DNA from: Sinohyriopsis cumingii
Lineage: Eukaryota; Mollusca; Bivalvia; Unionida; Unionidae
Reading direction: 5' to 3'
Assembly: GCA_028554795.2 (NCBI GenBank)
Contig: CM068826.1
Span: 105,996,602 to 106,060,601, forward strand
DNA length: 64,000 bases
A program made the translations under genes and the position numbers. Of this stretch, positions 3,714-64,000 are shown one piece after another (position 1 is the stretch's first letter; each line of letters starts with the position of its first letter). Under the pieces are notes generated by a model. It had not been told where the DNA came from, ran no database searches, and was given only the letters and a program-made list of their open reading frames with translations.

Positions 3714-3989
3714 CTGGAGCATAGTTGTTGTTGTTGTTGTTGTTGTGGGGTTTAACGCCATTTTTCAGCACGATAGGCTATACATGGCGGCCAGTATTAA
3801 TGGTGGAGGAAGAACCTGGAAAATCCCGGAAAGAACCACCGACCCACGAGAAGCTACTGGCAAGCTTTCTCACATGCCCACATTGGCTGAATCTTAGACT
3901 CGAACCGCCGCAGACAGAGGTGAGATGGCAGTGATCCGTAACGAAGAGCGCTTTAGACCACTCGGCCACTCGGGGCCCCTGGAGCATAG
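3714..3989 (-). mobile_element. tRNA-derived SINE, family A, full length
   Basis: Read on the - strand it starts GGGGCCCCGAGTGGCCGAG, with an A-box like that of Leu/Ser tRNAs. A B-box-like segment, a conserved body (AGAAAGCTTGCCAGTAGC in sister copies) and a tail GGCGTTAAACCCC(ACAACA)n follow. It is flanked by an 11-bp direct repeat CTGGAGCATAG at 3714-3724 and 3979-3989, the target-site duplication of LINE-mediated insertion. Sister copies lie at 6513, 16200, 27690, 60638 and 61902. Confidence 0.88.
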
Positions 3990-6502: not shown

Positions 6503-6757
6503 CTTCGTTCCTGGGGCCCCGAGTGGCCGAGTGGTCTAAAGCGTTCTCCGTTATGGATCACTGCCATCTCACCTCTGTCTGCATGGGTTCAAGTCTAGGA
6601 TTTGGCCAATGTGGGTATGTGAGAAAGCTTGCCAGTAGCTTCTCGTGGGTCGGTGGTTTTTCCTGGGTTCTTCCTCCACCATTATTAATGGCCGCCATGC
6701 ATAGCCTATCGTGTGCTGAAAAATGGCGTTAAACCCAACAACAACAACTTCGTTCCT
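6503..6757 (+). mobile_element. tRNA-derived SINE, family A, full length
   Basis: It starts GGGGCCCCGAGTGGCCGAG at 6513 and carries the tRNA-like head, the common body and the tail GGCGTTAAACCC(AACAAC). A 10-bp target-site duplication CTTCGTTCCT flanks it at 6503-6512 and 6748-6757. It lies just upstream of the first recognised caspase exon. Confidence 0.9.
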
Positions 6758-13500: not shown

Positions 13501-16500
13501 CACTTAGCTGATGTGCTAGCAAACTTAAACGTTAAATCGAGTTATACCTGCATGAAATCGATATGAAAGTTATTTATTTTCTCAGAAATTGTGAGTATTA
13601 AAATCATTATGTCTTTAATCTGCTGAAAGATGATAAAACTAATGCATTGACGAAATTTGAGCTGGTACTAGCAGTTTCGATTGCTAGTCGCACGAGCACG
13701 CAATCTCACAACCATTATTTTCATATATTGTAGGAAGAAAAATAATTAAATGAAAGTTGTATACTGGTTATAATAAAAATACAAAAATGAAAGCACAAGA
13801 TTCTCTATATTTATTCCGAGACCTACTTCCCGAGTTTTGTTGTATCACATGACTACTACATTGACATGTGCTCTCTTATGCAGGGAGCATACGAAGCAGG
13901 GAACCAGACTACACTACTTGATGACTCAGACTGGCAAAGCATCTTGTAGCTGTTCTCGAAATAAATATGTTGAGAATTATATGTTCTTTCTGGTTTTTAC
14001 AAAAGGTATCAGACTTTCATTTAATATAATTGAAAGTTTGTACAACAACATTAAAAAGGAGGTTGTTGTTGATATCACATGACTATTGGACTTACGATGT
14101 CGTTTTTTGAGAGTTGTGAAGTCATGTGACTATTAATGCAAATGGCGAGTACCTGGTCAGGTTTCATCGATGCCGAGTTTCATCTAGTCTGTCAGCAGAT
14201 GAAAGATATAACAAATATTATACTTGACATTTTTTAGAAATTAAATAATTTTCCTATCGATTTCATGCAGATATAAGTCGATATAACATAGTTTAAATTT
14301 CCTAGGCCCGCTGGCAGGCTATCTTACTCCATCCTAAATGTCTGAATGTGAAAAAATGGGCTTGGAATATTCAGAGAAACCCGGATTTGAAAAATGTTGA
14401 ATCTCTGAGCTGAACTTTGGTGCGGAACTATTACACAGTGACATGTAGCTTGAAGCATTGGTTTCAGATCTTAAATAGAACGCAGGAGAAATGGGAAATT
14501 GTCATACCTTTTATTATATATTAAGAAACGATAAGAGCCCATGTATCAATACAGGTTTTGGGACTGGTTTATTGAACTACAAAAAGGCAAATTGATTTTA
14601 CAGAAAATTCAATCCTTGTTTACACAACAATATATAATTTTGAAGGTCTTTGTCAAAATTTAAATAAACCTTTTTGTAAATGTCTTTTAATGATGGAATT
14701 TTTAACCAAATCGTCTTAAGGAGTTTTGGTTGGTTGAAAAATCTTGTTTGAGATTTTATTGGCACACATAAATTCAGGGTTAAACTTTTTTCGTTACAAG
14801 ACAAGATTCTAATACTTTGCATTTATTGTTTTTTTTATACTTTGTTTAACATGCATATATATTGCTCTAGAATTCTTTACAATTAAAGGTTTGAAAGGAA
14901 ACAAAATAATTTATGCACATTATATTGTTTCCACGTAGCAACATAATGCAGGTCAGCAAAGTAAAGTTAGGATTTGTATTCTGTACATTGAAATGGCTTA
15001 AAATGCCAGTTTATAGGAATATAGTCAGATTTGTTTCGTGTGACTCATTTTGTGGTTTATTACATGATTATCTTTTCTGACATATGTTTTCGAGAGTCTT
15101 GAAAGAGAAACATCTTCAGATTTGGAAAATGCATGTTTTATAATCCAAAATGTTCTTTAATTCCATTCAGTAATGGTCATATGTTCACGTGAAAAAATTA
15201 ATTTCATCCTGGAAAAAATCTGGAAAAGACCTGGAAATTTATATTTAGAAAAGTGTGGGAACCATGTACTGATTCTCCGCCATTTAGCTCTGTTTCATGT
15301 AAGAGAGATCAATCTGCCAGAAGCAAGCTTGACAACTGCATCATCCAGGATAGGAGGCAATCTGCTTCTAGGGCTTATGATGCAGAGGGAGTATCTTCTG
15401 TGATTGGGGAAATCTATTGATCTTTGCCATCACCCACTGAGCAGCAGATTTCCGTTTCTCCCTTTCTGGGGAAAGATTCTGTTCAGTGTCCACTGCTGAG
15501 GGTTATAGTGAAGCCTTTTCATACTTCAGACACTCTCAGATTCTAGAGGGTTTCTGCCATTGGGTGAGACACTCTATTCTGAGCTTCAGAGACCGGTGTC
15601 TAGCTCTCTGATTCCTAGATGGAATCTTTCATGTGTTTTTTTTTTCTTTTCTAGACATTATAAAAAAAACAACGATTATAGACCTTTTCAATTAATCTTC
15701 TTTCAAGAACCTTAGTTTTAAGACTGTTTTCCTGCTTTCCTTGGCATCAGCAAGGAGAATTGAGCTTTGTGCCTTGTCAATGCAAAAGGCTTGTTTATGG
15801 TTCATTAGTAATTTTGACTTGGTTTCTCTTCTTTACCAAGCTGGGTTTCTGACTGTGAATGAGCTCCACTTCCTACTGAGATGCCCAGTCTCAGCCATGT
15901 CTGTACCGAAGATGATCAAGATGAGTTTCTTTGCCCAGTTTCATTAGGTGTCTTCTAAAGGCTGAAAGAAGGGCCAGAAAGTCATTTTCTGCCTACAAAG
16001 GGTTCCTCAGATATTTTAAAAGTCTAAAATAATTTCCAGATTGATTGTCAAGAGAGCTTCAAAGTTCCACACTGAGAAGGACCTTTCTTTCATGAGAATT
16101 AGGGTTATTGGTACATCTTGACTCTGTTTAAATCACTTGTCTTTGGGTGATAAATGAGAGCTGCTTTCTTGCAGTCTCACACTCACTCATTGGATGTCAA
16201 GGTGGTCTAAGGTGCTCTTGTCTGCAAATCTCACCTCCGTTCATGTTGGTTTAAGTCTTGGCTCTGCCAATGTGGGCATGCAACAAAGCTTGTCAGTAGA
16301 TTTGTGTGGGTTGGTTCTTTTTGGGTTCTTCTTCCACCAGATATAATGGCTGCCATGTATAGCCATTGATGTGCTGAAAAATGGCATTAAACCCACAAAA
16401 CCATAAAGCACAAACCTCTCATCATTTATTTTCAATCTTTGGTACATCAGATTGAAGGGATTTTATCATTGGGTTCAATAGTGATGCCATGACATGTAGC

Positions 16501-19500: not shown

Positions 19501-22500
19501 GAAAGCTAGACATTTTGTAACAAAACATTTACTGTATATGGACAACTGAATGTTTTTAGAACACTTGCTTTTAGCCATTTATTAAACAAATATCACCAGC
19601 TTACCTTGAAATGGCAAGCATGCATCAAAACAATCTTTGACAAGTAGACCTTATAGTGATTTGAAACATTTTATTGTCAGATGGTAAGTATGTATTGTTA
19701 CAACTATCCTAATTTTTAAGAAATCCAGGTGGCTATGATTAGAGAGATAAGTGTCTTATATATTCAAACATACAAGTAAAGAATATTGTGAGTCATATTT
19801 TATTAACAAATATCACATAAATCACCTTGAAATGGCAAACATGCATCAGAAAAGATATATACTCTGGTGAGATTACAAAGTATAGAACTTGGAGAACATA
19901 AATCATTATGAACTGAACACAACTGTCTCTCTCTGTCTCTGTCTCTCTCTCTTTTTTGCCTGTGGGCAAGTACCTTGTAGACTTGAGCCAGCCTGAACTA
20001 AATTTGAGCTTCAGAGCTTTGGATGATTTATAAGGTTGTTGTTTGGGTTTAATGCTAAACACTTTTAAAATTGCATTGGATAGGTATTTGTTGCAGTAAC
20101 AACCTAATTCCACCCACCTGATCACATTATCTGTTCCATTAATGAATTCTAAGATACAACCTAATTCCACCCACCTGATCACATTATCTGTTCCATTAAT
20201 GAATTCTAAGATACAACCTAATTCCACCCACCTGATCACATTATCTGTTTCATTAATGGATTCTAAGATACAACCTAATTCCACCCACCTGATCACATTA
20301 TCTGTTCCATTAATGGATTCTAAGATACAACCTAATTCCACCCACCTGATCACATTATCTGTTTCATTAATGGATTCTAAGATACAACCTAATTCCACCC
20401 ACCTGATCACATTATCTGTTCCATTAATGGATTCTAAGATACAACCTAATTCCACCCACCTGATCACATTATCTGTTTCATTAATGGATTCTAAGATACA
20501 ACCTAATTCCACCCACCTGATCACATTATCTGTTCCATTAATGGATTCTAAGATACAACCTAATTCCACTCACCTGATCACATTATCTGTTCCATTAATG
20601 GATTCTAAGATACAACCTAATTCCACCCACCTGATCACATTATCTGTTCCATTAATGGATTCTAAGATACAACCTAATTCCACCCACCTGATCACATTAT
20701 CTGTTTCATTAATGGATTCTAAGTTACAAGTATGATCAATAATAACAAAGTCTGTGTATTACAAAATGTTTACACTTAATGTACAATATCAGCTCAACAC
20801 AGTCTATCAGACTTATTTAAGAATTATAATTTTTCACACACACACACATGCATGTATGCAAATATATTGGACACCTTATCAGGTCAGCACAAAACACTTG
20901 TGCAGATTTTCATTATTACTTGGTACTATTAACTGCTAAAATTTGGGGTGACACTTCAAGGTACAATGCTGTCATAATTTTCATGAATTTAAATTTGCAT
21001 TTGTTTTTCTGTTTTATTCAGAGTGCCAAAATATCATGCAATTACGACTGTGTTAAATGTAAAAGCTGAAAATTTTATTTATTTAAAAAAGGTGAAGCTT
21101 AGACATATGTAGGGATTTTTCCATCTAAACTTGAGCTTAACTATGAATAAATTGGTCATATGATGCCACAAAGTGTAGTCCCAGGTAGGAACTGCAGGTT
21201 GACCTTGAGACTAATTACTGCTGTCACCGATTGGATGAAATTGTTATAATGTACATTAATGTATTTGTGTAGGAGTTGAGCAGACTATTTTAGAGCAGTA
21301 GATAAGGCATGTGTTTGTGTAATGGGATTGTGGAAATCATCTCATTGTATTACAGAATGAAATTTTTTGTTGTAATGTTTCTCTCTCTCTCTCTCTCTCG
21401 TATTGTAGTTAGATATATGCCAGGAACTCGGTATCAGTTATATCAGTTTCCTGGACACTTTTGCCTGATATGTCATGCAGTTTTATGAGTGCATTCATGT
21501 TTATCACTTATGTTAACACCCATAAAATGTAAATTGTAGTTTTCTTGTTATACTGGCTATGCCAAGTTGAATTATGTACTGTACAGGTGAAGTTGGTGAG
21601 ATGTATTATTCAATAAAATTTTATGTTGGTTCCTTCTTATCATAAAGATATTTGTATTATAAACGTAAAAGAAGAAAAAAATAGTTTAATTTTTGTTTAT
21701 TATGCTAATGAGAAATTGTACATGGGATACGTATCAGAACCTGTGCTGTTTTGTTACACTTTGTTCCAGTGTTAATATGCTTTTTCTATTTAAAAAAATG
21801 AAAATTTGATGAATGTTGTCACATTCACAGCAGGGAGTAAAACATATCATTAGATCTTTAAAAAAATAAAATTGCATGAAGTTCAGCAGAAATAAGAATA
21901 TTAATGCATTGGTAGTTTATGATAAAACTTAAATTTAGATTTATTATGCAAAATATTGAATAAGGTAATCAGGTTCACAAGGCATTGGTATTGTGTTAAT
22001 TTATTATCAAAATTTTAATTGGCATTATGTATTATATGTCATCTTTGTTACAACTAGTGAATGTTTAAATTTAAGTCAATGGTCATGTCTTTCAAATACC
22101 AAACAGTACGCAAATTCCTTCAGAAAGAGAATGCATTTAATAAATGTCTGAACATATGTTTCTTTTTCATTCAAGTGCGAATGCAGTCTTTTAAAAACTG
22201 GTTTGACATCTTTCCAAATCACATGAACATCAATGGAAATTGGTGTAAGTTACTTTATGGCAGGATTTAGAACTAACACGCCATCCTTCCCAAATGGCAT
22301 GTGATAGAAGTGGACACTGATAGTCACTGTTTTGTGTTGGCAATTGTGTTGGCTTTTTAAACAGCAGGCAGTAACACTAACCAACCAGCCATGTACTGCC
22401 GTCACCTGGGGGAGCTAAACTTTACCATCATTGACTTTCTCATGAAGGTAACATTGACAAGTTTATGCACCACAAGCTAGATGTTGCAGTAATATCTTTG

Positions 22501-25500: not shown

Positions 25501-28500
25501 ATAGTCCATGTGACTCATCTCACCAACAGAAAAAATGATCTTCATAAAAGATATGCTCTGCCATGATGCGTTGATTAGAAAGAAAATGAAGCAATCACTA
25601 AATCTGAAAACAGTGGCTGTGACTCTTGATTAGCATCTAGATTACACCTTTTCCAGATCTAACAATACTAAGAAAACTGATATTTTCTTTATCATCATAG
25701 GAGCTATTCCACCCTCCCGCATTAATTATACTTTCATATGACATTCCCAGTAATTATAATGACATTCCAAGTAACTATAATGACATTCCAAGTAACTATA
25801 ATGACATTCCAAGTAATTATAATGACATTCCAAGTAACTATAATGACATTCCAAGTAATTATAATGACATTCCAAGTAACTATAATGATATTCCAAGTAA
25901 TTATAATGACATTCCCAGTAATTATAATGACATCGGTTTATCCATAGCCCTAAGACCCACAAGATTTTTGCCAGAAGGTCTGTGATGCTAAAATCATTTT
26001 ATGGGTTTATGCTGTACCCTCTACTAAAGGTATAAGCATGAGGTAAACAAAGTGGATAGTGTTGACACTTTACTAATAGAAAATGTGTCTGGATGGAGAG
26101 TCAAACACTAAGTCTCACTTGTTTGCTCCAAAATCTGTCATGTTCTACCTCTGGACCACACATTTTTTTTGGAAAAATTCCCTAATAAAAGCTATATGAA
26201 CAGAAAGTCTGGTTTAATATTGCAAGAGACAGTGGGGACTACATAAAAAGAAAATTTTAAAAAATTTCAACAAGTTATCATACATAAGACGTTTATCAAT
26301 CATATGCTTTTATTAGAGAGTGTTGGATCTATTTAGTTTCTGTAATATCTAGGAAATATCTTCCTAACTTGAACTAATACATGCATGGGTGAGTAAACGT
26401 CACTCTAATATATAAACATTAGGATTAGATTATTCTGAATTGAATATTATATTGTTATAAAGTCCTAGTTCGAGTCAGTCATCTGTCCAAATTGTATTGG
26501 ATAGTAATTGAATATTGGGGAATATTCAAAATCAATTGCACAACATAAAGACACATCTATCAGCTTTTATTATACATTCATAAAGGTATTATATTTAAGA
26601 CCCATTCAGGCAGATCAGCTTTAACATCAACTATGTATGTCCAAGATAGGAAGATCACACTGCCCCAGTGCTCTAAGCAGCATGGATATTACAGAACATA
26701 TCCATCCATTTTTCCCACACATCTTTACTCACTCTCTCGCTTAAGTCAAGCACATGTTTTTTGCATTTAAATACCATATCTACTGAAGTGTTATACCCTT
26801 GTGCTCATAGTTCTTCAATAGTCAAATAATGGAAGGTCGTGCATTTTCACCATCACATGTCCTGCTTGGCTGCCATTGGGGAGGGTAGTTGTGCAGAGGT
26901 CCTGGCCATTTCAGTCGAACTCCCGGCATCTAACTTTCTGCAGGGCCCAGTCTTCATTGCAATGAGTTCTTCATGGTTATTGTTATCAAAACCAGCCCCT
27001 GACCATTTTCAAGTACGCAAACTCCCAACATCTAACATTCTGCAGGGCCCAGTCTTCATTGCAATGAGTTCTACATGGTTAGTGTTATCAAAACCAGCCT
27101 CTGACCATTTTCAAGTATGCAAGCTCCCAGCATCTAACATTCTGCAGGGCCCAGTCTTCATTTTGATGAGCATTCCAATAATATTATGATCCAAAGCCAG
27201 ACTTGAATTGTCTACCATCTTACATTTATAACCTTTGTGTTACCACTAGCATTATGAAAAAGCCAGAATTTCATTTGAAACTTGTTCCATGCCATAGGCA
27301 TTATGCAAAAAAAAGCCTTTTACATTTGCTGTGTATCTAGTTATCATAAAACTTATTTCAATCTTAACATGTTTAAAAGAAGATGGTTGTTACTGTGTCA
27401 ATTTGAAAATTTCATGGTTATACTGACCACTGAATATCAGTATACAAGAGCTTAATGAGTGCAGTTTGATGATGTCACCAAATTTGAATATTCCTTGCAT
27501 ATTTAATCACTTGTACATCGACATTGCACATAAATGACAAATTAGCCATTCCTTGACAATTTGTAACAAATTTCCCAAACTCTTGTTAACTCATTAACCT
27601 CTGGCATCTTGTTTACATGTCTGGAGGTAGTAGCCTACTTCTTAGTACTGTAGCATCAAAGTCGTTTAAGATAAACTAATTTGGGTGGTGTTGTTGTTGT
27701 TGTAGGGTTTAACGCCATTTTTCAGCACACGATAGGCTATACATGGCGGCCAGTATTAATGATGGAGGAAGAACCCGGGAAAACCCCAGAAAGAACCATC
27801 AACCCACGAGAAGCTAAATTTGGGTGGTATTATAGAAAGATAAACAAATGTATCTATACGATGATACCGGATAATCTGGACTTTCTAGTTGCTCTACAAA
27901 ATACAGAGGATAAAATGGACCCAATTGTTTTCCACCCCAAATTCGCCCATGGTCAGAATCTAATTTTCTGTCTGGATTTTAAACTTTTTGACCTCATATG
28001 TAAGGCAGATCAGTCTGAGCTGCACACAGACAGGTGAACCTTTGCAAAAATGGAGGATAAGATTGGCATTTGGAATAAAAAGTGGTCTGCATACGAAAAG
28101 GATAGTCTGTTAAGCACAAAAAATACCCATTAGAACTGCAACTTTTACCCTTTTGCTCATCCTGAGTGAAATAGATTATGAAAACACTGTTTCTAACACA
28201 ACTAGGCATTAGGTTAACCAGAAATCTCTTAAGTTGATGTATTAGGATGTATTTAGAAAAAAAATATTGGATGTGTTTGTGCACTGGCACAATGACATTT
28301 GAATTAATGTTCATTCTGTTTTATTGTCTCTATTTTTTCATTCTGGAGACCCATTTGTTATAAAAGAAGAAACCAGTGCCTCTCTATTCATAATTGACAA
28401 GGAATAATACAAACTGGCATTGTCAGTCAGTGCTGTAACAAAGCCATACTATGCATGTTGGACAAGTGTCTCTCATGCCATATGCTTTGCAGTTATTGGA

Positions 28501-43500: not shown

Positions 43501-46500
43501 GTAGCTATATCCATGTAGACTCCATTTATTTTAAGTCCCAAAAAGAACCATTTTGCATGCTGTCTAATTTTCTTTGCAAGTATAACGACCTATCAATTCC
43601 CAACAAATAAGATTTTTTTAAAAGTACATGCACACTTCCTGTACTTGGGTGGCAATTGTTATTTGGTCTTTGCTCATGCTAGATGTACTTTAAATTGCTG
43701 TTGGTTCCATTGGCAAGTTAAAAAATGTCACTGGCTGAGAAATTTACATAAATAACCTCCTGGAATTTCTTTTCATTATATGGTATGGTATTCATAGTAC
43801 CCATGGGTAGCCTCATTTCTCTTTTGGTAGCCTCGCTAATCTGATTTGGTCTGCCAAATCTTGACCACAAACAGGTGTTAGCTTGGAATGACTGTAGCAT
43901 ATTTAATTAGTATGTAAATACCACTACAAAGCCATGTGATTCTTGGACAGTGGAAGTGGCAACAATAACTAGAAGGAATTGCTTACCTAGTGGTATTAAC
44001 TGATAGTGGAATATGGTACTACATTTGTGCCCTCGTGCATGAGTAAGGTCAGTCATCAGGTAAGCTAACAGTACATATTTACAATTGTGAAGATGTCTCT
44101 CTCTCTCTTTGTCTGTCTCTCTCAATGGGGCAAAAGTTTTATTTGATTCTTGGGTGCAAGAAGAAAATTGTGATTGATTATGTCTTTGTCACGGTTATTC
44201 ATCTTCTAACTTGTCAATTCTAATGCACATATATGTAATCAAATTTAAACAAGGCATATTATAAACAAATTACTGGCGCATTCTGCTTTAGCACAATTAC
44301 ATCTGATGGATGTTAATTTTTAATACTGACAGTCTTGTAATTGTTTTAAATACTCAGTGTGGGATCCTGTATTTTTTTAATAAACAACCTCTTCCCCAAA
44401 ATGAAATATTTTTTATACGTTATTTTTCATGCTTTTGGAGAATTGTTTTCCATACACAAAATATGATAAAGCGATTTGGATGACTTAGTCCTTATATAAG
44501 TTAATTTGGATGAAGCAAAGATTTTCTGGTCAAAAAGTATTGTCTTACAGGTCAACAAATATGGTATGACCAGCCATTTAGGAGAAGTAGCCATAACAGG
44601 ATTTTTAATATTGGCACCACTTAATTTGCAACCAAATAGACATTATAAGAAATCTTTCATTTAAAATCCCATTCTGACAGGACCATTCATTCAGGAGCAG
44701 TAGTGATAATAAGGTTTTCAAAATGACTACTATGATGGAAATATTGGATGTATGAGCACCAGCATTTTCGGTTAGGACAAACTATACATCACATGAAGTC
44801 TTTTAGTAAAACTCCATGTTGATATGACCACCTATTCAGGAGGAGTAATTGTATGCTTTTCAAAATGGCTACTTTAACCATCCATTAGTAGATATCAGAT
44901 CAGCACCATTTTCATTTTAGACATCATAACCATCTGGTGCAAACTCCATGTCAATGTGGTAGCCATATTAGACATCAGATTGACACCATTTTCATGTAGG
45001 ACAACCTAGACATCATTAGTGGTCTTAAGTATAAAACACATATCAATATGACTTTCTGTTCAGGAGAAGCAGTGATAACATTTTCATGATGGTTGCCATG
45101 TAGGTCATAATGGATGTCAGATCGACACCATCTTCATTTAGGACTAGCTGTATGCCCTAAGAAGTCGTTCATTGAAAATCCAATTCCACATGACCTCCAT
45201 TCAGGAAGAGTAGGGGTAACAAGATTTTCATGATGGCCACCGTGGCAGTCATGTTGGATGTCCAAGTGGCACCATTTTCAATTGGGACCAGCTAGACCAT
45301 TTGATGAATATGTGTGTAAAGTTCTATGGCAATCCTTGCATTAGTTTAAGAGGAGTAGCTATAAGAAAGTTGTGCTAATGGACAGTGGATGAAAGACCAG
45401 TCCATAAGCTCTTCTGGTCTATAACCAGTGAAGCTAAAATTATTTCCTAATCTTGCAAAAACATCTTCAGATATTAAGTTTTCAATAACATTGTAAGTGT
45501 GATGACATCATATACTATCATTGTGTACACTTGTGACAAATAGGAATATCTCATGGATTTCTCACAAAAAACTTCTTGAACAAAACTAAAGTATATTGAA
45601 TCATACATCATTCAGTTTTATGCTCTTGTATATTGAATTTCCACTTTATGCTTTTATACATTGAATTTCCACTTTGTGCTCTTATGCATTGAATTTCCAC
45701 TTTATGCTCTTGTATATTGAATTTCCACTTTACGCTCTTATGCATTGAATTTCCACTTTATGCTCTTGTATATTGAATTCCACTTTATGCTCTTATGCAT
45801 TGAATTTCCACTTTATGCTCTTGTATATTGAATTTCCACTTTATGCTCTTATATATTGAATTTCCACTTTATGCTCTTATGCATTGAATTTCCACTTTAT
45901 GCTCTTGTATATTGAATTTCCACTTTATGTTCTTTTACATTGAATTTCCACTTTATGCTCTTGTATATTGAATTTCCACTTTATGTTCTTATACATTGAA
46001 TTTCCACTTTATGCTCTTATGCATTGAATTTCCACTTTATGCTCTTGTATATTGAATTTCCACTTTATACTCTTATGCATTGAATTTCCACTTTATGCTC
46101 TTGTATATTGAATTTCCACTTTATGTTCTTATACATTGAATTTCCACTTTATGCTCTTATACATTGAATTTCCACTTTATGTTCTTATACATTGAATTTC
46201 CACTTTATGCTCTTATGCATTGAATTGCTCTTGTATATTGAATTTCCACTTTATGTTCTTATACATTGAATTTCCACTTTATGCTCTTATGCATTGAATT
46301 GCTCTTGTATATTGAATTTCCACTTTATGCTCTTGTATATTGAATTTCCACTTTATGCTCTTATGCATTGAATTTCCACTTTATACTCTTGTATATTGAA
46401 TTTCCACTTTATGCTCTTATACATTGAATTTCCACTTTATGCTCTTATGCATTGAATTTCCACTTTATGCTCTTGTATATTGAATTTCCACTTTATGCTC

Positions 46501-46878
46501 TTATGCATTGAATTTCCACTTTATGCTCTTGTGCATTGAATTTCCACTTTATGTTCTTATACATTGAATTTCCACTTTATGTTCTTATACATTGATTTTC
46601 CACTTTATGCTCTTATGCATTGAATTTTCACTTTTAAAGGTTTTTATTCCTGGAGGAACAACAAGAATGGTTCCTGGTTCATCCAAGCTTTGACAGAAGT
46701 GTTGGCAAAAAGCTGGCAGACCTTGGACCTGCTGACAATCCTGACCCGTGTCAACAAAAAGGTGGCCTTGGAATTCACTTCCAATACATCAGATCCTGCA
46801 ATGAAGAATAAGAAGCAGATACCTATGATCACATCAATGCTTACTAAAGAAATCAAATTCAAAGCAAAGGACCAATGA
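7464..46878 (+). CDS. CASP3/7-like: executioner caspase gene, caspase-3/7-like (gene span, exons listed separately)
   Basis: Cysteine protease of clan CD that cuts after aspartate and carries out apoptotic proteolysis in the cytosol. Exons in order are 7464-7521 (candidate), 19066-19340, 29638-29819, 36584-36719 and 46640-46878, with intron phases 2, 1, 0 and 1 matching at each join. The four secure exons give 276 residues. They show the p20 core (IIINN, ERAGTDVDG), the catalytic-His motif SHGEEG, catalytic Cys in QACQG, a D-rich inter-subunit linker (LDVADAKG), and p10 with YSWRN, GSWFIQ and a C-terminus containing SMLTKE. Total length with the small N-terminal exon fits short-prodomain executioners (about 280-310 residues). 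The first exon was not found, so a longer CARD or DED prodomain cannot be excluded. The introns are filled with SINEs, minisatellites and transposon relics. Known from the family: the zymogen is activated by cleavage between p20 and p10. Which of caspase-3, -6 or -7 is the nearest relative was not resolved. Confidence 0.93.
7522..8571. other. caspase intron, no element recognised
   Basis: AT-rich intronic sequence between the candidate N-terminal exon and the 86-bp minisatellite. Nothing coding or structured was recognised. Confidence 0.5.
8572..10445. repeat. 86-bp minisatellite, about 22 copies, with a five-unit higher-order period
   Basis: The unit starts GAGTCTAGTGAGTGTGGAG and ends TTCCTTTTGCT; the first full copy measures 86 bp. 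Sub-types differ at fixed places, for example TTTGATGAGTC versus TTTGCTGAGTC, and TTGCCACATG versus a shortened CCCTTTCCACATG. The TTTGATGA sub-type recurs near 9153, 9583 and 10010, a spacing of about 430 bp or five units, so the array was amplified in five-unit blocks. Short open frames inside it have no coding signature. Confidence 0.95.
10446..13480. other. caspase intron with simple repeats
   Basis: Contains a GA-rich microsatellite at about 10568-10592, a G10 run near 10727, a short ATA repeat near 12320 and several homopolymer runs. No exon or element boundary was recognised. Confidence 0.5.
13485..14325. mobile_element. foldback-type element with long imperfect inverted repeats
   Basis: The first ~200 bp and the reverse complement of the last ~200 bp align. 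Examples are CTGCATGAAATCGATATGAA near 13548 against CTGCATGAAATCGATAGGAA read backwards from about 14275, and AAAGCATAGCC at the left against GGCTATC at the right. A second copy of the left and central parts lies at 31561-32150. No transposase is visible, so this is a non-autonomous element, and exact ends are uncertain by some tens of bases. Confidence 0.6.
14326..15170. other. caspase intron, no element recognised
   Basis: AT-rich sequence with a T-run near 14828 and no recognisable exon or repeat. Short phrases near 15180-15260 (GGAAAAAATCTGGAAAAGAC) resemble the MITE family at 4535. Confidence 0.5.
15290..16090 (+). pseudogene. decayed DIRS-type tyrosine recombinase
   Basis: Around 15589 a frame reads RPVSSSLIPRWNLS. 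After a T-rich insertion, a second frame from 15720 reads KTVFLLSLASARRIELCALS, followed by FDLVSLLYQAGFL, with a stop at 15945-15947. This order (RPV..WNLS, then KTVFLLSLAS..R..EL) matches the core of the phage-integrase-like recombinase of DIRS retroelements, including the first catalytic arginine region (ARR.EL). Conceptual translation downstream carries further fragments with stops and frame changes up to about 16090. No reverse transcriptase was recognised next to it. The copy is dead and sits in a caspase intron. Confidence 0.62.
16197..16405 (+). mobile_element. diverged family-A SINE copy, head truncated
   Basis: It contains the family body (AATGTGGGCATG, AAGCTTGTCAGTAG, GCCATGTATAGCC, GTGCTGAAAAATGGC) and the tail ATTAAACCCACAAAACC. 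The A-box part of the tRNA head is missing or mutated. It is more diverged from the consensus than the copies at 6513 or 61902, so probably older. No target duplication was identified. Confidence 0.75.
17340..17620 (+). repeat. dispersed degenerate repeat family D (AAATGGTGCCAGTCAGACATCC type)
   Basis: Two adjacent copies carry AAATGGTGCCAGTCA at about 17342 and 17475 and a GAAAATCTTG phrase downstream in each. The same family forms longer arrays at 37340-38270 (same strand) and at 41440-45440 (opposite strand). No coding potential. Confidence 0.6.
17815..18167 (+). mobile_element. tRNA-derived SINE, family B
   Basis: The head carries an A-box-like TGGCCTAAGTGGTTAG and a B-box-like GGGTTCAAACCCTGG at tRNA spacing. 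A body of about 270 bp follows (GACTGGGTGGGACATGATGC, CTAGACATGACTATAAACTC) and ends TTAAAAATCCAAATC then (AC)n. A second copy of the same family lies reversed at 55685-55999. It is distinct from family A in head, body and tail. Confidence 0.82.
18168..19065. other. caspase intron, no element recognised
   Basis: AT-rich intronic sequence ending in the strong polypyrimidine tract GACTTGACTCTCTTCACAG in front of the first secure caspase exon. Confidence 0.5.
19066..19340 (+). CDS. CASP3/7-like: caspase p20 exon 1 (substrate-pocket Arg, first helix)
   Basis: 275 nt: one base completing a codon, 91 codons, one base. Acceptor CTCTTCACAG|T, donor CCACAG|GTAAAA. It encodes FKVTPQNSYNAG, then the start of the fold: a DHDNRGMAIIINNKTF strand and ERAGTDVDGMALLSAFKAMGF, the loop and helix that in caspases carries the arginine gripping the P1 aspartate (here R of ERAGTDVD). 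It ends in the second helix (VKEMVSILST). An in-frame ATG at 19112 exists, but the frame stays open back to the splice acceptor and the peptide before it is protein-like, so I do not take it as the start. Confidence 0.95.
19341..20099. other. caspase intron
   Basis: Contains a CT-rich microsatellite at about 19922-19953 and otherwise unstructured AT-rich sequence. Confidence 0.5.
20100..20728. repeat. 57-bp minisatellite, 11 copies, open on both strands
   Basis: The unit begins CAACCTAATTCCACCCACC and ends GATTCTAAGATA. Eleven copies are nearly identical. Because 57 is a multiple of three and neither strand carries a stop in one frame, long frames appear on both: a 19-residue repeat containing KIQPNSTHLITLSV on +, and one containing ELGCILESIN on -. 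One base (TTCCATT versus TTTCATT) alternates for much of the array, giving a P/S order PPSPSPSPPPS in the + translation. The array sits in a caspase intron with no splice sites supporting its use as an exon. Confidence 0.95.
20729..22380. other. caspase intron, simple repeats only
   Basis: Contains (CA)n near 20836 and (TC)n at about 21381-21399; otherwise AT-rich. The frame near 22178 (RMQSFKNWFDIFPNH) has some protein texture and may be the left edge of the polymerase relic that follows. Confidence 0.45.
22380..24240 (+). pseudogene. decayed protein-primed family-B DNA polymerase, Polinton/Maverick type
   Basis: Fragments in several + frames keep the order of this polymerase. The exonuclease part includes QNLYGCNSHF near 22980 (an altered NLxGYDSH-type motif). 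The spacer shows NWEQFEDTQL near 23230. The region before the palm includes SGLSWNASLKKTGIKHEQL near 23465. A later segment keeps EEDLEFPEELHGIHNDY near 23773, and HVTKVY near 24042 follows. Stops and frame changes separate all of these, so the copy cannot be functional. Known from the family: such polymerases replicate large self-synthesising, virus-related transposons. No integrase, packaging ATPase or capsid gene was recognised nearby. A perfect palindrome interrupts the gene at 23956-24038. Confidence 0.75.
23956..24038. repeat. perfect palindrome, 38-bp arms, 7-bp loop
   Basis: The left arm at 23956-23993 begins AATAGAACTATGGCCCATTA. The right arm at 24001-24038 is its exact reverse complement, separated by CCTAGTG. 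The left arm reads in the frame expected for this part of the polymerase relic, so the right arm is probably a local inverted duplication. It could extrude as a cruciform or form a hairpin in RNA. Confidence 0.95.
24241..25737. other. unresolved, possibly more of the Polinton-like relic
   Basis: The base texture is more balanced than in flanking introns. Moderately long frames lie on the - strand (24367-24651 and 24709-24930), as would suit oppositely oriented genes of a Polinton, but no capsid, protease, ATPase or integrase motif is recognisable. It may equally be unrelated decayed sequence. Confidence 0.35.
25739..25931. repeat. 21-bp minisatellite, 9 copies
   Basis: Unit TGACATTCCAAGTAATTATAA. 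Positions alternate between AACTATAA and AATTATAA for much of the array, giving a 42-bp dimer period. The first and last copies carry TTCCCAG instead of TTCCAAG. The length is a multiple of three, so both strands stay open. Not coding. Confidence 0.93.
25932..26919. other. caspase intron, no element recognised
   Basis: AT-rich sequence with no exon, SINE or array. Confidence 0.5.
26920..27180. repeat. 102-bp tandem repeat, about 2.5 copies
   Basis: CTCCCGGCATCTAAC at 26920, CTCCCAACATCTAAC at 27022 and CTCCCAGCATCTAAC at 27124 mark starts exactly 102 bp apart. Shared segments include CAGGGCCCAGTCTTCATT and AAAACCAGCC. The unit is a multiple of three, so a 116-codon frame runs through it, but the frame has no recognisable domain. 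Confidence 0.88.
27678..27828 (-). mobile_element. 5'-truncated SINE, family A
   Basis: On the - strand only the 3' half of the family is present: body from AGCTTCTCGTGGGT-like sequence to the tail AAACCCTACAACAACAAC. A 12-bp target duplication AATTTGGGTGGT lies at 27678-27689 and 27817-27828, directly at the truncation point, so the copy was inserted already shortened and not trimmed later. Confidence 0.88.
27829..28847. other. caspase intron, no element recognised
   Basis: AT-rich; no array or exon was found. Confidence 0.45.
28848..28998. repeat. short minisatellite, about 24-bp units, 6 copies
   Basis: Units begin AATGG or ATTGG and run through AAATATACAGCTATACTT. Unit length varies between about 23 and 25 bp because of A-run differences. 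Confidence 0.85.
29406..29498 (+). CDS. CASP3/7-like: candidate in-frame cassette exon of the caspase
   Basis: Acceptor TTTGTCTCCTTTAG and donor TTTACAG|GTAAGT bound 93 nt with no stop. The exon takes two bases to complete a phase-1 codon and ends with one base, so it is symmetric (1-1) and a multiple of three. It can be included between the exons at 19066-19340 and 29638-29819 without changing frame. It would add 31 residues (starting EEKFGNKDMFLQ, then a hydrophobic LQLAILHTLNL) between the second p20 helix and the strand leading to the catalytic His. Direct joining of the two flanking exons already gives a normal caspase length, so this is either alternatively spliced or a fortuitous pseudo-exon. 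Confidence 0.45.
29638..29819 (+). CDS. CASP3/7-like: caspase p20 exon 2 (catalytic His)
   Basis: 182 nt: two bases finishing a codon begun in the previous exon (G+CT, Ala), then 60 codons. Acceptor TTTATTTATAG, donor ATTCAG|GTACAT. It encodes the strand DCFMCAILSHGEEGVIYG with the catalytic His of SHGEEG, then LQSLLRFFKGNACPGLVGKP and KIFFIQ. It stops exactly after the Q of the active-site pentapeptide, in phase 0. The conserved context is strong enough to fix family membership alone. Confidence 0.97.
29820..30316. other. caspase intron, no element recognised
   Basis: AT-rich sequence between the catalytic-His exon and the inverted-repeat segment. Confidence 0.5.
30317..33366. mobile_element. 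3-kb segment bounded by ~165-bp inverted repeats
   Basis: The left end (from ATGTTTCTCC at 30317 to about 30485) and the reverse complement of the right end (about 33190-33366) align over their length. Shared blocks are AATATTAGCC, AGCCCTA.TAAAAGAC, CTTTTCCTGT.TATTTCC, AGGGCA.TAACTC and ACCTCCCC....CACCACC.GGTGT. It may be one DNA transposon with long terminal inverted repeats or two copies of a shorter repeat in opposite orientation. The interior holds a copy of the 13.5-kb foldback repeat and several short frames without a recognised transposase. Target duplication was not established. Confidence 0.6.
31561..32150. repeat. second copy of the foldback repeat at 13485
   Basis: Runs parallel to 13487-14165, sharing for example GCTAGCAAACTTAAACGTT, CTTTAATCTGCTGAAAGA, GTTGAGAATTATATGTTCTT and GTTGTGAAGTCATGTGACTA. 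The right inverted arm present in the first copy is missing here. The copy lies inside the 30317-33366 segment. Confidence 0.8.
33367..34935. other. caspase intron, no element recognised
   Basis: No convincing exon. Some fragments just before 34936 probably belong to the recombinase relic that follows. Confidence 0.4.
34936..35155 (+). pseudogene. C-terminal fragment of a Crypton-like tyrosine recombinase
   Basis: A 72-codon frame reads LCQKLIQNNVTDTQAKHITG followed by HKNPNSLNNYQ. This is the end of a tyrosine recombinase domain: the H-x-x-G-H box and, shortly after, the candidate nucleophilic Tyr of SLNNY, in the style of Crypton-derived recombinases and their domesticated relatives. The N-terminal part with the first catalytic Arg is not seen in frame upstream, and the frame stops soon after, so this is a truncated relic. 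It is different from the DIRS-type recombinase at 15.7 kb. Confidence 0.6.
35156..36583. other. caspase intron, no element recognised
   Basis: AT-rich sequence with a short near-duplicate phrase (ATGCATCATTT.ACATCTTGG) at about 35947 and 36003. Ends in the acceptor CTACCTTGTTCAG at 36583. Confidence 0.45.
36584..36719 (+). CDS. CASP3/7-like: caspase exon with catalytic Cys and p20/p10 linker
   Basis: 136 nt: 45 codons plus one base. It opens with ACQGQKFDDGVA, so with the previous exon's Q it forms the active-site pentapeptide QACQG with the nucleophilic Cys. The following LDVADAKGFMPKEI carries aspartates suitable for inter-subunit processing (DVAD|A is the best candidate). It then enters p10 with SEADFLIAYSVVP. 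Donor CCAG|GTAAAT, phase 1. Confidence 0.97.
36720..37339. other. caspase intron, no element recognised
   Basis: AT-rich; no structure was found. Confidence 0.45.
37340..38270 (+). repeat. array of dispersed repeat family D, forward orientation
   Basis: Degenerate copies, roughly 110-170 bp apart, of a unit with AAATGGTGC..CAGACATCC, GCCATCTTGAAAATC, ACTACT and TTTTCACTAAAAGACTT. The same unit appears once or twice at 17340 and in reverse complement at 41440-41760, 42390-42790 and 44540-45440. No coding signal. Confidence 0.75.
38271..41300. other. decayed, possibly retroelement-derived stretch
   Basis: The base composition is more balanced than in neighbouring introns and many broken frames of 60-95 codons occur on both strands. 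A - strand phrase near 39780 (HLEGGQLVVTMSN) is weakly reminiscent of the RNase H-like part of DIRS or Gypsy retroelements. No full domain is recognisable, so this is only a suggestion of origin. Confidence 0.3.
41440..41760 (-). repeat. dispersed repeat family D, reverse orientation
   Basis: Reverse complements of the 37.3-kb unit: AGTCACTTGGTGAAAACCCA, AGCCATATTGGATGTATGAT, AGCACCATGTCAATTAGG. One to two units. Confidence 0.65.
42390..42790 (-). repeat. dispersed repeat family D, reverse orientation
   Basis: About three degenerate units with AAGATGGCCACTG, AAACCCAATGTTGATATGAC and ACCATATCCATTAAGAC. Followed at 42790-42890 by two phrases CTTATAAGTCGATGCGGAGT / ATATAAGTCGATGCGGAGT 70 bp apart, a different short repeat. 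Confidence 0.65.
42890..44539. other. caspase intron, no element recognised
   Basis: AT-rich sequence with a short CT-rich microsatellite near 44096-44124. No exon was found. Confidence 0.45.
44540..45440 (-). repeat. array of dispersed repeat family D, reverse orientation
   Basis: About six degenerate units with ACCATTTTCAT.TAGGACNA, GTCATATTGGATGTC-type and CATTCAGGAGGAGTAG phrases. Orientation is opposite to the array at 37340-38270. Confidence 0.72.
45615..46636. repeat. 28-bp minisatellite, about 36 copies, abutting the last caspase exon
   Basis: Unit GAATTTCCACTTTATGCTCTTATGCATT. The main variants CTTGTATATT, CTTATGCATT and CTTATACATT often alternate, giving a 56-bp dimer period in places. 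A few units lack the TTTCCACTTTAT part (near 46224 and 46300). The final unit, GAATTTTCACTTTTAAAG, is itself the polypyrimidine tract and splice acceptor of the exon starting at 46640. Confidence 0.95.
46640..46878 (+). CDS. CASP3/7-like: caspase p10 terminal exon
   Basis: Two bases complete the Gly codon begun at 36719; the exon then runs 79 codons to TGA at 46876-46878. It encodes FYSWRNNKNGSWFIQALTEV with the substrate-binding YSWRN and GSWFIQ of executioner caspases. LTILTRVNKKVALEF, KKQIPMITSMLTKE and the C-terminus IKFKAKDQ follow. The acceptor TTTTCACTTTTAAAG is supplied by the last unit of the 28-bp minisatellite. The length after YSWRN matches caspase-3/7, so the C-terminus looks intact. 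Confidence 0.97.
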
Positions 46879-52728: not shown

Positions 52729-53760
52729 TAGCTGTAAATATGGTGACTATTGAATTAAGCTCATTAACTAATAAGCTTCCGAAGACAGTAGGGATAAAAA
52801 AGAAAATATGTTATCAGCCTCCTCCCCACTCCCACACAAATATGTATGAGCCTCGTGTATGCCATTCAGAGAGAGAAACATGCTTAAAATGGTTCTTCTA
52901 CTGCATTTGTATACAGGAAGTATTATATTCTAGTTCTGCAAAACTAATTTGAGCAAGGCAGATAACATCAGAATGTATATAAACATACATATTGCTGGTA
53001 ACAGTCTTATGACCAGTAGCCTAAGATTTTTATCATGTGGTCCTCTAACTGAACATGTGTGACACCGGTAGCCGCACCTTTTCTGGAAGGAGTGTCCTTT
53101 GTACTGCAATCTTTGATCAGTGAGCACCAAACGTAGCAGGATCAAAAGAATGCATTTGTTAGCAGTAGTTTTGCATACAAAGTTTGCTCTACAAATGCAA
53201 CCAGTACTGAATTGGTGTTTGCTCATGTTCTTCTACCCAGCTTCTGATTAACTGCATAGGACAAGTTAGAAATTTAGTTATAATCTCATTAGGATAAGAC
53301 AGACTGGCAGTGATGCTGCATCTGTGCAGAAAGCTACTGTTAACATGAGGTATATAGGTGTATAGGAACATTGAAAACTGAAACTCAAGATGAAATGAGA
53401 TCCTTAGATTTGCAGTGATCAAAAATATTCTTTCATGTGCAGTAGGAAGTGGGTATGAATCATATGGGGAAAATAATTGAATATATTTAAGTATTTACCC
53501 AAATGAGGTGGCAAGAAGGAAAACCAAATTCATAAATGCAAAATCTTGCATGCACTACACAGCAGTAGTCCAAAACCATAAAGGGAGCACAGTTAACTGC
53601 TATGAAACAGTGCGACTATAACAAATAGAAAATGGAAAGTGTGTATATAATGATAGAAATGATGAAGTCTGCAAGTTACCATACATGAAAGTTGAGTACA
53701 CAATTACTGTAGCAAAAGCTGTCCAACAACTGGGACAGTGTGTTAATCTAGTAAGAGTAG
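52729..53760. other. no recognised gene
   Basis: Some - strand frames at 52930-53422 have protein-like texture but are broken and match no family I know. Confidence 0.4.
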
Positions 53761-54190
53761 GGCTTTAAGTTGTGACATCAAATGACAATATCCATCCAAT
53801 AAGGGGAGGGAGGGCTACAAGTTGTGACATCAAATGACAATATCTATCAAGTAAGGGGAGGGAGGGCTACAAGATGTCACATCAAATGACAATATCCATC
53901 CAATAAGGGGAGGGAGGGCTGCAAGTTGTCACATCAAATGACAATATCTATCAAGTAAGGGGAGGGAGGGCTACAAGTTGTGACATCAAATGACAGTATC
54001 TATCAAGTAAGGGGAGGGAGGGCTACAAGTTGTGACATCAAATGACAATATCTATCAAGTAAGGGGAGGGAGGGCTACAAGTTGTGACATCAAATGACAA
54101 TATCCATCCAGTAAGGGGAGGGAGGGCTGCAAGTTGTGACATCAAATGACAATATCCATCCAGAAAGGGGACAGAGGGCTGCAAGTGACA
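53761..54190. repeat. 52-bp minisatellite, 8 copies
   Basis: Unit GGCTACAAGTTGTGACATCA followed by AATGACAATATCTATCAAGT and AAGGGGAGGGAG. Starts at 53761, 53813 and 53865 are 52 bp apart. Two sub-types, TCCATCCAAT and TCTATCAAGT, are partly interleaved. Confidence 0.95.
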
Positions 54191-55049
54191 TCAAATGGCA
54201 AATATCAATCCAGTTTCTTGTGGGTAAAATAATAAACTTGCCAAACTTTTGGAAGCAAATGCTGATGATCCCCATGAGAATGCAGTAAATGAATTCAACT
54301 ACTTCTGTAACATTATGATTCACATTGTTTTAAAATTCAGACAGAATTATAATGATTGTGTACAAAAACAAACCCCAAAAAACTTGTTCCTTATATCTGA
54401 ATTCTAGCTGTTGCTATGTAACAGTTAAACTCTCTCAGTTCTTATAATTAAACTCTATATTTAACAAATGTAATAGAATAAAACTGAAGAAGTAGAGATA
54501 AATGTGTTTTTATTGCAAGGGTTAAGCAAATGATTCTGGGAGATGTGGAGAGAAAATATGTGTAACTGGAATAATTTACATAAGAAGGTTCTGATGTGTA
54601 CTGAATCTACTCAGTGTGTGTGTGGAAAATTTGTTTAAATTTACTTTAAATGCACGAGCTGTAGTAACAGTTCAGATCAGATGCATTAGAAATGTAAGCA
54701 ATTCTTGAAATATAATTAGGAAAAAGCAAGATTGTAACTGAGTTTGTAGTCAGTCAGAGAAAAAAGAATTTTCTTGAAGAATTATCACTGACAAATATCA
54801 TAAGAATCAATGAAATTCTAAATTCAGATGCACTCTAATGTAAGAAGTTCTTCAAAAAATGTTTCTGATGACAACTTAATACACTCCAAGTCTGAAACTA
54901 AGACCACGGCCAAAGAAAATGATTATACAAGAACTATCACACAAAAGAATCAAAACCATTCCAGTCTTAAATTAATTCACATAAAACATCTTGAAAATTT
55001 ATTGTTTAAAAAATGTGCACAAGTGAATGTAACACGTCATTTTTACCAT
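54191..55049. other. no recognised gene
   Basis: AT-rich sequence without array, SINE or exon. A 104-codon + frame at 54828-55142 has low complexity and runs into the family-E repeat. Confidence 0.45.
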
Positions 55050-60626: not shown

Positions 60627-60903
60627 CATAACAAAGGTTGTTGTTGTTGTTGTAGTGTTTAACGCCATTTTTCAGCACACGATAGGCTATACATGGCGGC
60701 CAGTATTAATGGTGGAGGAAGAACCCTGAAAAACCCAGGGAAGAACCACCGACCCACGAGAAGCTTCTGGCAGGCTTTCCCACGTACCCACGCTAACCGA
60801 GCCTTGGACTCGAACCCACGCAGACAGAGGTGAGATGGCAGTGATCCGAAACGGAGAGCGCTTTAGACCACTCGGCCACTCGGGGCCCCCCCCATAACAA
60901 AGG
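60627..60903 (-). mobile_element. tRNA-derived SINE, family A, full length
   Basis: Runs from (TTG)n and AACGCCATTTTTCAGCACAC to GGCCACTCGGGGCCCC on +, so it reads head to tail on -. An 11-bp target duplication CATAACAAAGG flanks it at 60627-60637 and 60893-60903. The A-box and B-box-like segments are well kept. Confidence 0.92.
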
Positions 60904-61888: not shown

Positions 61889-62113
61889 ACTGCGCAGTAA
61901 GAGGGGCCCCGAGTGGCCGAGTGGTCAAAAGCGCTCTCCGTTACGGATGACTGCCATCTCACCTCTGTCTACGTGGGTTCGAGTCTCGGATTCGACCAAT
62001 GTGGGTATGTGAGAAAGCTTGCCAGTAGCTTCTCGTGGGTCGGTGGTTCTTCCCGGGGTTTTCCCGGGTTCTTCCTCCACCATTAATACTGGCCGCCATA
62101 CACAGGGCCGGCG

Positions 62114-62149
<36 letters not shown>

Positions 62150-62372
62150 CTGATCTCGGGGGGGGGGGGGGCGCGTTTTAAATAAAAAAATTATTGTTTA
62201 TAAATTTTGAAATTGATATTTTCCGGGGGGGGGGGGCGCAAGAATCTAACCTTACCTAGGGCGCCAGATAGTCTGGCCGGGTCTGGCGCCGGCCCTGGCC
62301 ATACATAGCCTATAGTGTGCTGAAAAATGGCGTTAAACCCCACAACAACAACAACAACAACTGCACAGTAAG
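61889..62372 (+). mobile_element. tRNA-derived SINE, family A, interrupted by a nested MITE
   Basis: Head GGGGCCCCGAGTGGCCGAG at 61903, B-box GGGTTCGAGTCTCGG, body and tail AAACCCC(ACAACA)n ending near 62360. A 13-bp target duplication with one mismatch, ACTGCGCAGTAAG / ACTGCACAGTAAG, lies at 61889-61901 and 62360-62372. The 195-bp element at 62103-62297 interrupts it in the GGCCGCCATACATAGCC segment. Confidence 0.92.
62103..62297. mobile_element. 195-bp hAT-type MITE nested in the SINE
   Basis: Terminal inverted repeats CAGGGCCGGCGC at the left and GCGCCGGCCCTG at the right. An exact 8-bp target duplication GCCATACA lies at 62095-62102 and 62298-62305. Eight-base duplications and CAG...CTG ends are the hallmark of the hAT superfamily. 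The inside holds two long G runs (about 62158-62171 and 62225-62236) and inverted CCTAGGGCGC phrases. No coding capacity, so mobilisation would need a transposase in trans. Confidence 0.92.
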
Positions 62373-62711
62373 TTTAGTTTAAGGTCAAGATCATTGAAAA
62401 CCACTGTTAATATTCCCCTCAGTCAACCATACCTTACTACAAAGGGTATTACACTGGTCAACAGTGAAATCATTACTGACTTGAAAAGGCCCTAATCTGT
62501 AGTATTTTGGTGTGCCGAACACGAATATAACCGTGAAAAATTTGTATTGGCTCTCGTTTTGAAGATATTCATATACCTCATTTTCTATGTTTCACTGTGT
62601 AAATTTCTCCAGTAGGACTGCAGCAACATCCGGAATAATGATGTAACATTGCATAATACCATCATGCTCACATCATCCACAGTTGATTGCATCATTTTCT
62701 GATGCAATGCA

Positions 62712-62832
62712 ATACTAATGCCATGCGGCTGCTGAAGTAAGTTGACGTCAGCAGTGTACTATACATGTGTAGGCCTATTATACTAATGCCAGGCGGCTGC
62801 TGAAGCTGACGTAAGCAGTGTACTATATAAAG
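62712..62832 (+). promoter_or_regulatory. duplicated promoter-like segment with CRE and TATA motifs
   Basis: A segment beginning ATACTAATGCCATGCGGCTG occurs at 62712 and again, with small changes, at 62780. Copy 1 holds a perfect CRE palindrome TGACGTCA at 62743-62750; copy 2 holds TGACGTAA. Both then read GCAGTGTACTATA. Only copy 2 continues as a TATA box TATATAAAG at 62824-62832; copy 1 reads TATACATG. The TATA box is 122 bp before the ATG of the ORF at 62946. Confidence 0.55.
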
Positions 62833-62945
62833 CCCAATCAGATAGGTTCAGCATTTAAAATATTTTAGACGTTGTGCGAGACAGTTCAAGCTACTGTTAC
62901 ATAAAACTTATTATTTTATCCATTTACGTACAATAAAGAACAGTA

Positions 62946-64000
62946 ATGCCTCGAAAGTGTGTTAATACCGCAGACAATTTTTGCTATATTTGTGGGGAAG
63001 TGACATTTGCCAACCAGAAGAAAAGTATCAATTCTCAAGTGAAGAAGGCATATCATCTTTACTTCGGATGCAAGGTTGGTGACCAAGACAAGCCTTGGGC
63101 TCCGCATATATGCTGTGCTACATGTACAACACAGCTTTCACAGTGGTTGAATTGCAAAAGGTCATCAATGCCGTTTGCAGTCCCAATGGTGTGGAGAGAG
63201 CCAAGCAACCACCTAAATGACTGTTACTTCTGCTTGGTTCCTCCTCTTTCCGGTGGAATAACGAAGCGAAAGAAGTCGAGAATAGTCTACCCAAACATTC
63301 CGTCTGCATTGAGACCAGTTCCACATGGTGAGGGACTTCCTATTCCAGAACCTCCAGCAGAATATTCTCTTGATTCATCTGACGAAGACAAAGGTGAGTC
63401 GACCTGTTCTTCTCCTGGTCCATCAGCATGCAGTGATCCAGATTTTCACTGTGGTGCATCATCAACCCCACACAGAATAACACAGGAAGAACTAAATGAC
63501 CTGATTCGTGATTTGGACTTATCAAAGAACAAGGCAGAATTGCTAGGATCAAGACTCCAACAATGGAATCTTCTAGAAGAAGATGTCACAATTACTGCAT
63601 ATCGAAAGCGCCACCAGCAATTGGAGCCTTTCTTCAGAAAGGAAAGTAATCTGATATTCTGTTCCGATATTGAGGGCCTCATGAATGCTTTAAAAATCAC
63701 TCATGACCCACAAGAATGGAGACTATTTGTGGACTCTTCGAAACTGAGTCTCAAGGCTGTGCTTTTGCACAATGGAAACATTCTTCCATCTATTCCAGTA
63801 GCGTATGCTGTCCACATGAAAGAGACATACGATAACTTAAGGCAGCTACTGAATTCCATTGAGTATAACAAGTACAGCTGGCACCTCTGTGGTGATTTGA
63901 AGGTAGTTGCCCTTTTAATGGGACTGCAGCAAGGATATACAAAATACATGTGTTTCTTATGCGAGTGGGATAGCCGAGCAAGGGAAATGCACTACATGAG
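62946..64000 (+). CDS. intact transposon-like protein, partial at the right edge
   Basis: From ATG at 62946 the frame is open for 351 codons to the window end. The N-terminus (MPRKCVNTADNFCYICGEVT) has C-x2-C, and further on HICCATC gives another C-x2-C, suggesting a zinc-binding domain in the first ~65 residues. A basic stretch (TKRKKSR) and a Ser/Asp/Glu-rich spacer (SLDSSDEDKGESTCSS) follow. After them come an LNDLIRDLDLSKNKAELL segment, a beta-rich block FVDSSKLSLKAVLLHNGN, and CGDLKVVALLMGLQQGYTKY followed by CFLCEWDSR. The Asp residues of FVDSS and CGDLK could belong to an RNase H-like (DDE-type) core; this is inference. From memory, near-identical 'uncharacterized' proteins are multicopy in hydra, arthropod and fish genomes, which points to a mobile element. 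The superfamily is unknown to me. The lack of any stop suggests recent insertion. Confidence 0.72.
   Translation, partial: MPRKCVNTADNFCYICGEVTFANQKKSINSQVKKAYHLYFGCKVGDQDKPWAPHICCATCTTQLSQWLNCKRSSMPFAVPMVWREPSNHLNDCYFCLVPPLSGGITKRKKSRIVYPNIPSALRPVPHGEGLPIPEPPAEYSLDSSDEDKGESTCSSPGPSACSDPDFHCGASSTPHRITQEELNDLIRDLDLSKNKAELLGSRLQQWNLLEEDVTITAYRKRHQQLEPFFRKESNLIFCSDIEGLMNALKITHDPQEWRLFVDSSKLSLKAVLLHNGNILPSIPVAYAVHMKETYDNLRQLLNSIEYNKYSWHLCGDLKVVALLMGLQQGYTKYMCFLCEWDSRAREMHYM

Follow-up and report, generated by a model that had tools for sequence, protein, structure and literature searches.

Several thousand near-identical copies of a probable Chapaev3-group DNA transposon in the genome of the bivalve Sinohyriopsis cumingii

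The transposon at the right end of the window

We analyzed a window of 64,000 nucleotides from the bivalve Sinohyriopsis cumingii (GenBank assembly GCA_028554795.2, contig CM068826.1, positions 105,996,602 to 106,060,601 of the forward strand; G000:C3:105996602-106060601 in our coordinates), the right end of which is occupied by a DNA transposon and its transposase gene (Table 1). The gene starts with an ATG, and its reading frame remains open to the window end over 351 residues, the longest of the five window frames of at least 120 residues in a scan for open reading frames (ORFs). Comparison of the window with itself shows a tandem array at 20099-20729 that overlaps both runners-up, of 258 and 197 residues. 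The guanine-cytosine content of 62001-64000 (0.433) is the highest of the 32 two-kilobase steps across the window. These results agree with an earlier reading of this DNA by a model (the sequence-only reading), which had singled out the frame as the longest intact one and as distinct from its AT-rich surroundings. Extension of the contig to the right, which that reading had called for, shows that the frame terminates after codon 562. The extent that it gave, 62946 to 64000, is correct for the ORF start and does not hold for the mobile unit, which begins at 62452 and has its right end outside the window, at G000:C3:106061452. The whole copy (G000:C3:106059053-106061452) has TTA on both sides, the right TTA being followed by T.

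The sequence-only reading had described an N-terminus rich in Cys and a C-terminal block with conserved-looking Asp, Cys and Trp. Both recur in the older relatives discussed below, and the C-terminal block is DDE-like. The N-terminus holds three conserved Cys clusters. The motifs known from the literature as C(2)C, LH and H(4)H are all present (C336-x2-C339, L384-H385 and H493-x4-H498). By motif order and conservation, we propose D263, D317 and E515 as the DDE triad. The N-terminal clusters are a candidate for the Chapa zinc finger, reported in Chapaev3 and at the N-terminus of RAG1 (PMC4411706). The label is unconfirmed, with no Pfam match and no PDB profile match for the N-terminus.

Table 1. 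Features of the transposon copy in the window and the groups of older relatives
Feature	Position in window	Strand	Basis
Left copy of 3-bp target-site duplication TTA, context ATTA	62449..62451	.	sequence
Chapaev3-type DNA transposon (probable), first 1,549 of 2,400 bp	62452..64000	+	copy alignment
5' imperfect terminal inverted repeat, ~115 bp, starts CACTGGTCAACA	62452..62566	+	alignment of ends
Direct duplication, ~50 bp, in 5' leader (62712-62763 and 62780-62827)	62712..62827	+	self-alignment
TATATAAAG, possible TATA box of the transposase gene	62824..62832	+	by eye; putative role
Transposase ORF, first 351 of 562 codons, no intron needed	62946..64000	+	ORF and contig extension
Cys-rich N-terminus, residues 13-96 (CYIC, HICCATC, CYFC), candidate Chapa-type zinc finger	62982..63233	+	sequence; recurs in relatives
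Codon of D263 (FVDSS, from residue 261), candidate first catalytic Asp	63732..63734	+	putative role
Codon of D317 (CGDLK, from residue 315), candidate second catalytic Asp	63894..63896	+	putative role
C(2)C motif CFLC, residues 336-339 (within CFLCEWDSR)	63951..63962	+	sequence; motif name from literature
LH 384-385, H(4)H 493/498, candidate E515	past window end	+	full 562-residue translation
Group A relatives: L090, L091, L093-L096, L101, L102			pieces 49-65% identical to young protein
Group B relatives: L089, L092, L097-L100			pieces 38-51% identical to young protein

The borders of the unit were defined by aligning the window copy with 30 others. Column agreement is 0.92-1.0 across 2.4 kb and 0.36-0.41 outside it. 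The homology of the 31 copies stops at CAC...GTG ends, the unit starting with CACTGGTCAACA and ending with TGTTGTCCAGTG. The two ends match in inverted orientation over ~115 bp (local score 78; the best of 1,000 letter-shuffled controls reached 44), most closely in the inner blocks 62504-62538 and 62546-62560 of the 5' repeat. The sample was enlarged to 71 copies (the 30, the window copy L031 and 40 more from the same protein-search list). Both ends could be identified in 69 of these, L010 and L056 being without an exact 5' end; as the 69 were located by terminal end words, CAC/GTG in 69/69 holds by construction. The length is exactly 2,400 bp in 62 of the 69 and 2,399-2,402 bp in the others. 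Matching 3-bp duplications flank 65 of the 69 copies (TTA 30, TAA 18, ATA 5, others 12), so that TWA (TTA or TAA) makes up 48 of 65. The preceding base is A in 52 and the following base T in 50 of the 65, the exceptions being mostly G and C. An empty site was found for L030: another copy of the host repeat, beside L071, aligns without a gap through the junction, at 73% identity. Further candidates were L071, with a gap adjoining the junction, and L008, which aligns poorly. The flanks of L030 and L071 belong to one diverged repeat (73-79%) that was hit by two young transposon copies.

Copy number, intactness and age

A count of near-identical copies and a definition of terminal repeats had been proposed as a check in the sequence-only reading, and the count came to about 5,100 copies; the terminal repeats are those described above. 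In the genome searched (2.90 Gb in 1,138 contigs), exact matches number 4,972 for the first 27 bp of the unit, 4,854 for 27 bp around CGDLK and 4,882 for the last 28 bp, with none for any of the three reversed-pattern controls, and the strands are balanced (2,509 vs 2,463 matches). With up to three mismatches allowed, the ORF word occurs 5,101 times (control 0); 5,082 would be expected if every copy had the divergence of our sample, and no older tail of the young family is visible at this site. At the protein level, the 351 residues are identical in all of the 116 copies scored and listed out of 8,621 first-look candidates; the 116 lie on contigs C1 and C2, and the window copy, on C3, is not among them. 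The sequence-only reading of the frame as an intact, recent mobile-element gene was thus borne out.

Pairing of ends was followed for the first 100 listed 5' ends, on C1 up to 49.5 Mb. The ORF word lies within 120 bp of its expected place for 88 of them. An exact 3' end could be paired with 93 and was missing for seven; 91 of the 93 pairs span 2,350-2,450 bp, 74 of them exactly 2,400. About nine in ten copies in this sample are therefore near full length. A swamping of the family by short derivatives is not seen in the sample, where only two of the 93 paired copies (1,540 and 2,295 bp) fall outside the 2,350-2,450 bp range. The 562-residue frame is intact in 64 of the 71 fetched copies, a share that is inflated because these copies were picked by an intact first (N-terminal) half.

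Divergence from the consensus is 0.00169 per site (95% interval 0.0014-0.0020; 157 substitutions, 69 copies, 1,347 sites), the first 351 codons having been excluded from the dating because the copies were selected by identity there. If the neutral rate is assumed to lie between 1 and 5 x 10^-9 per year, the burst would date to about 1.7 to 0.3 million years ago. Eighteen variants are common to two to four of the 69 copies and the remainder are private, a star-like pattern. Of the changes in the last 212 codons, 63 are nonsynonymous and 22 are synonymous (ratio 0.75, Fisher P 0.23); the changes between copies are near neutral, with no sign of strong constraint. The counts, together with the low and star-like divergence in the samples, show that one sequence variant expanded to some 5,100 copies in one recent burst.

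Class assignment and its alternatives

The sequence-only reading had suspected an unnamed, under-described class of transposon. That suspicion is not upheld, as the features match those of the named group Chapaev3 (PMC4411706, PMC4079192), for which PMC4411706 cites a naming report of 2008 in Repbase Reports. We regard the element as very probably a Chapaev3-group (CMC/Transib-related) cut-and-paste DNA transposon, autonomous and 2,400 bp long, with one intron-less gene. Chapaev3 includes Merrow of lampreys (Chapaev3-1_PM), Garfield of the silkworm, other insects and a bracovirus, and Conan of tenrec and lizard. Its hallmarks are CAC/GTG ends, TWA duplications with A before and T after them, and the C(2)C, LH and H(4)H motifs (PMC4079192). 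The present element has all of these in common with the group, as well as the size and protein length: 2,400 bp and 562 residues, vs 2.3-2.45 kb and 556-562 residues in table 1 of PMC4079192 (Merrow, 2,451 bp, encodes 78+484 residues). Merrow and Garfield have two exons; the present element has one, as do most Chapaev3 transposases (PMC4079192). Star-like copy trees and near-neutral change are likewise reported there for Chapaev3. The copy numbers in the same table reach a maximum of more than 254 in a coding and 281 in a non-autonomous family, against ~5,100 here, the counting rules being different.

Several points weigh against this assignment. It was made by comparison with published feature descriptions. 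The target preference is strong here and yet looser than published: 17 of the 65 matching duplications, about one in four, are not TWA, whereas TWA was found in all Chapaev3 examined in PMC4079192 and the flanking A and T were described there as invariable. Four of the 69 copies (L007, L027, L039 and L070) are without a matching 3-bp duplication, and the inflated share of intact frames belongs here as well. Neither the 351 nor the 562 residues gave a Pfam match (E up to 10 for the latter), the NCBIfam search of the transposase was without a match, PHROGs gave a single match at chance level (E 0.056), and no PDB match was obtained by sequence or by profiles of the core and N-terminus. A structure model from the single sequence was useless (mean predicted local distance difference test score, pLDDT, 38.2). 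A core model from a 26-row alignment had a mean pLDDT of 54.6 and is confident only in its helical part, so that the active site is not seen in it. The best structural match was Transib (HzTransib, PDB 6pqn), with Z below the safe level of the tool; a RAG1 chain was not among the 50 matches listed, which excludes nothing.

The lack of a library match for the transposase and the 17 duplications other than TWA would both favor a separate, unnamed lineage of the CMCT clade (EnSpm, Mirage, Chapaev, Transib and others), branching outside Chapaev3 and working in the same way. The clade overall has CA..TG ends, 2-5 bp duplications and C/H motifs. We consider such a lineage improbable, given that size, single exon, 562 residues, A-TWA-T, CAC...GTG and H(4)H jointly fit published Chapaev3. 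EnSpm/CACTA and Mirage likewise belong to the CMC megafamily and have CAC-type ends and short duplications, but no Pfam transposase match was found here, and size and target preference fit Chapaev3 better. The C2/H2 zinc motifs in common with RAG1, the CAC... ends and the Transib structure as top match could instead point to a RAG-like or Transib transposon, a RAG1L relative. Transib and RAG-like elements have 5-bp duplications, and the latter, known in molluscs, carry a RAG2-like gene, RAG2L (PMC7204232). The present element has neither: its duplications are of 3 bp, for which reason this origin is disfavored, and its 2,400 bp hold one 562-codon gene and no RAG2-like gene. As there is also no RAG or Transib sequence match in the PDB, we hold it to be highly improbable. 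The near-identity of the copies might speak for a host gene family or for a repeat of segmental or satellite type, but this has next to no probability: the family is neither single copy, with or without the conserved synteny that the sequence-only reading had named as contrary evidence, nor free of mobile-element ends, the ~5,100 copies are dispersed, the exact 5' matches are spread equally over the two strands, 65 of 69 sampled copies have 3-bp duplications, agreement drops to background directly outside the unit, and the diverged empty site is gapless over the L030 junction. A Chapaev3-group transposon remains the preferred assignment.

Older relatives, proposed mechanism and meaning

Relatives were sought with a degenerate pattern for HIKLGLMK in which CAT was forced at the His codon, to exclude most young copies. 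It matched 17 times in the genome (control 0); three matches were the young sequence but for one letter, and the other 14 form two groups by DNA similarity, A and B, both Chapaev3-like. Identities (Table 1) were taken from 25 aligned fragments, misplaced fragments being left out. All 14 are broken by stops or frameshifts, with no open frame above 250 residues in the first eight and none above 156 in the other six. A group-B probe gave 150 scored matches of 6,521 candidates, 55-100% identical (100% being its own source) and many with internal stops. The longest open frame among the group-B matches listed, L103 (468 residues), is 41% identical over 511 residues. These older copies (L089-L104) share the protein layout and motifs of the young element, the Cys-rich N-terminus included; unlike the young family, which is uniform and mostly intact in the samples, the 14 fetched first are broken, and their pieces are 38-65% identical to the young protein. 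FVDSS, CGDLK and CFLCEWDSR recur in most relative pieces that span them, as do D263, D317, C336/C339, L384-H385, H498 and E515, with exceptions in single broken copies; in L103, E512 is lost and H493 is N. The merged alignment of overlapping relative pieces favors matching letters and was used for positions only. No protein relative was found in the viral contigs or prokaryote genomes searched; four viral and 13 genome loci from the back-translated HIKLGLMK were discarded as chance matches by tblastn (best E 0.20). The group-B matches extend beyond 50 Mb on many contigs up to C19 and stay below 6 Mb on C33 and later, which suggests about 19 large chromosomes.

Self-comparison of the window revealed copies of a short interspersed nuclear element (SINE) of tRNA-derived appearance at 3736-3977, 6515-6748, 60643-60887 and 61905-62352 (split), with partial copies at 27693-27816 and 16228-16395; matched pieces are 78-95% identical. 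ARAGORN found no tRNA gene in the window. Inside a SINE copy lies a 195-bp insertion (62103-62297) whose ends, CAGGGCCGGCGC, are inverted and which is flanked by the 8-bp duplication GCCATACA; it resembles a hAT-type miniature element. Tandem arrays occupy 8568-10443 (step ~86 bp), 20099-20729 (~57), 45617-46634 (28-56) and 53759-54214 (52).

In the mechanism that we propose, the 562-residue transposase would recognize the ~115-bp imperfect terminal inverted repeats, probably by its N-terminal zinc-finger region. An RNase-H-like DDE core with D263, D317 and probably E515, interrupted by a helical insertion and stabilized by a putative zinc site of C336/C339 with H493/H498, would cut at the CAC...GTG ends. 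The ends would then be joined to the target with a 3-bp stagger, preferably at A-TWA-T, leaving the duplications observed. Transcription from the predicted TATATAAAG at 62824 and present-day activity are likely. Horizontal arrival of the young family is suggested from this single genome because group A is at most 65% identical and no intermediates were found by the probes used. It is possible, though short of probable, that we are looking at a live Chapaev3 in mid-invasion, recently and probably horizontally arrived, that reached ~5,100 mostly full-length copies before any takeover by non-autonomous elements.

The class is known, and the analysis corrects a reading that would have declared a new one; what appears to be new is the young family itself, how uniform it is and how large its burst was. 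In the open-access literature available to us, we found no Chapaev family at comparable copy number, and absence from print is not claimed. The ~5,100 copies are uniform and, where sampled, mostly of full length, and they provide a snapshot of an invasion during or just after its burst. They document how far a Chapaev3 element can spread before visible decay; were every copy full length, the family would take up as much as ~12 Mb, or 0.4% of the genome. They also provide a natural transposase, with no mending needed, from the clade that holds Transib and RAG1, the recombinase of our antibody genes. If the element is indeed live and in mid-invasion, many of its insertions would still be polymorphic, and its transposase would be a native, unmutated and assayable relative in the RAG1 lineage.
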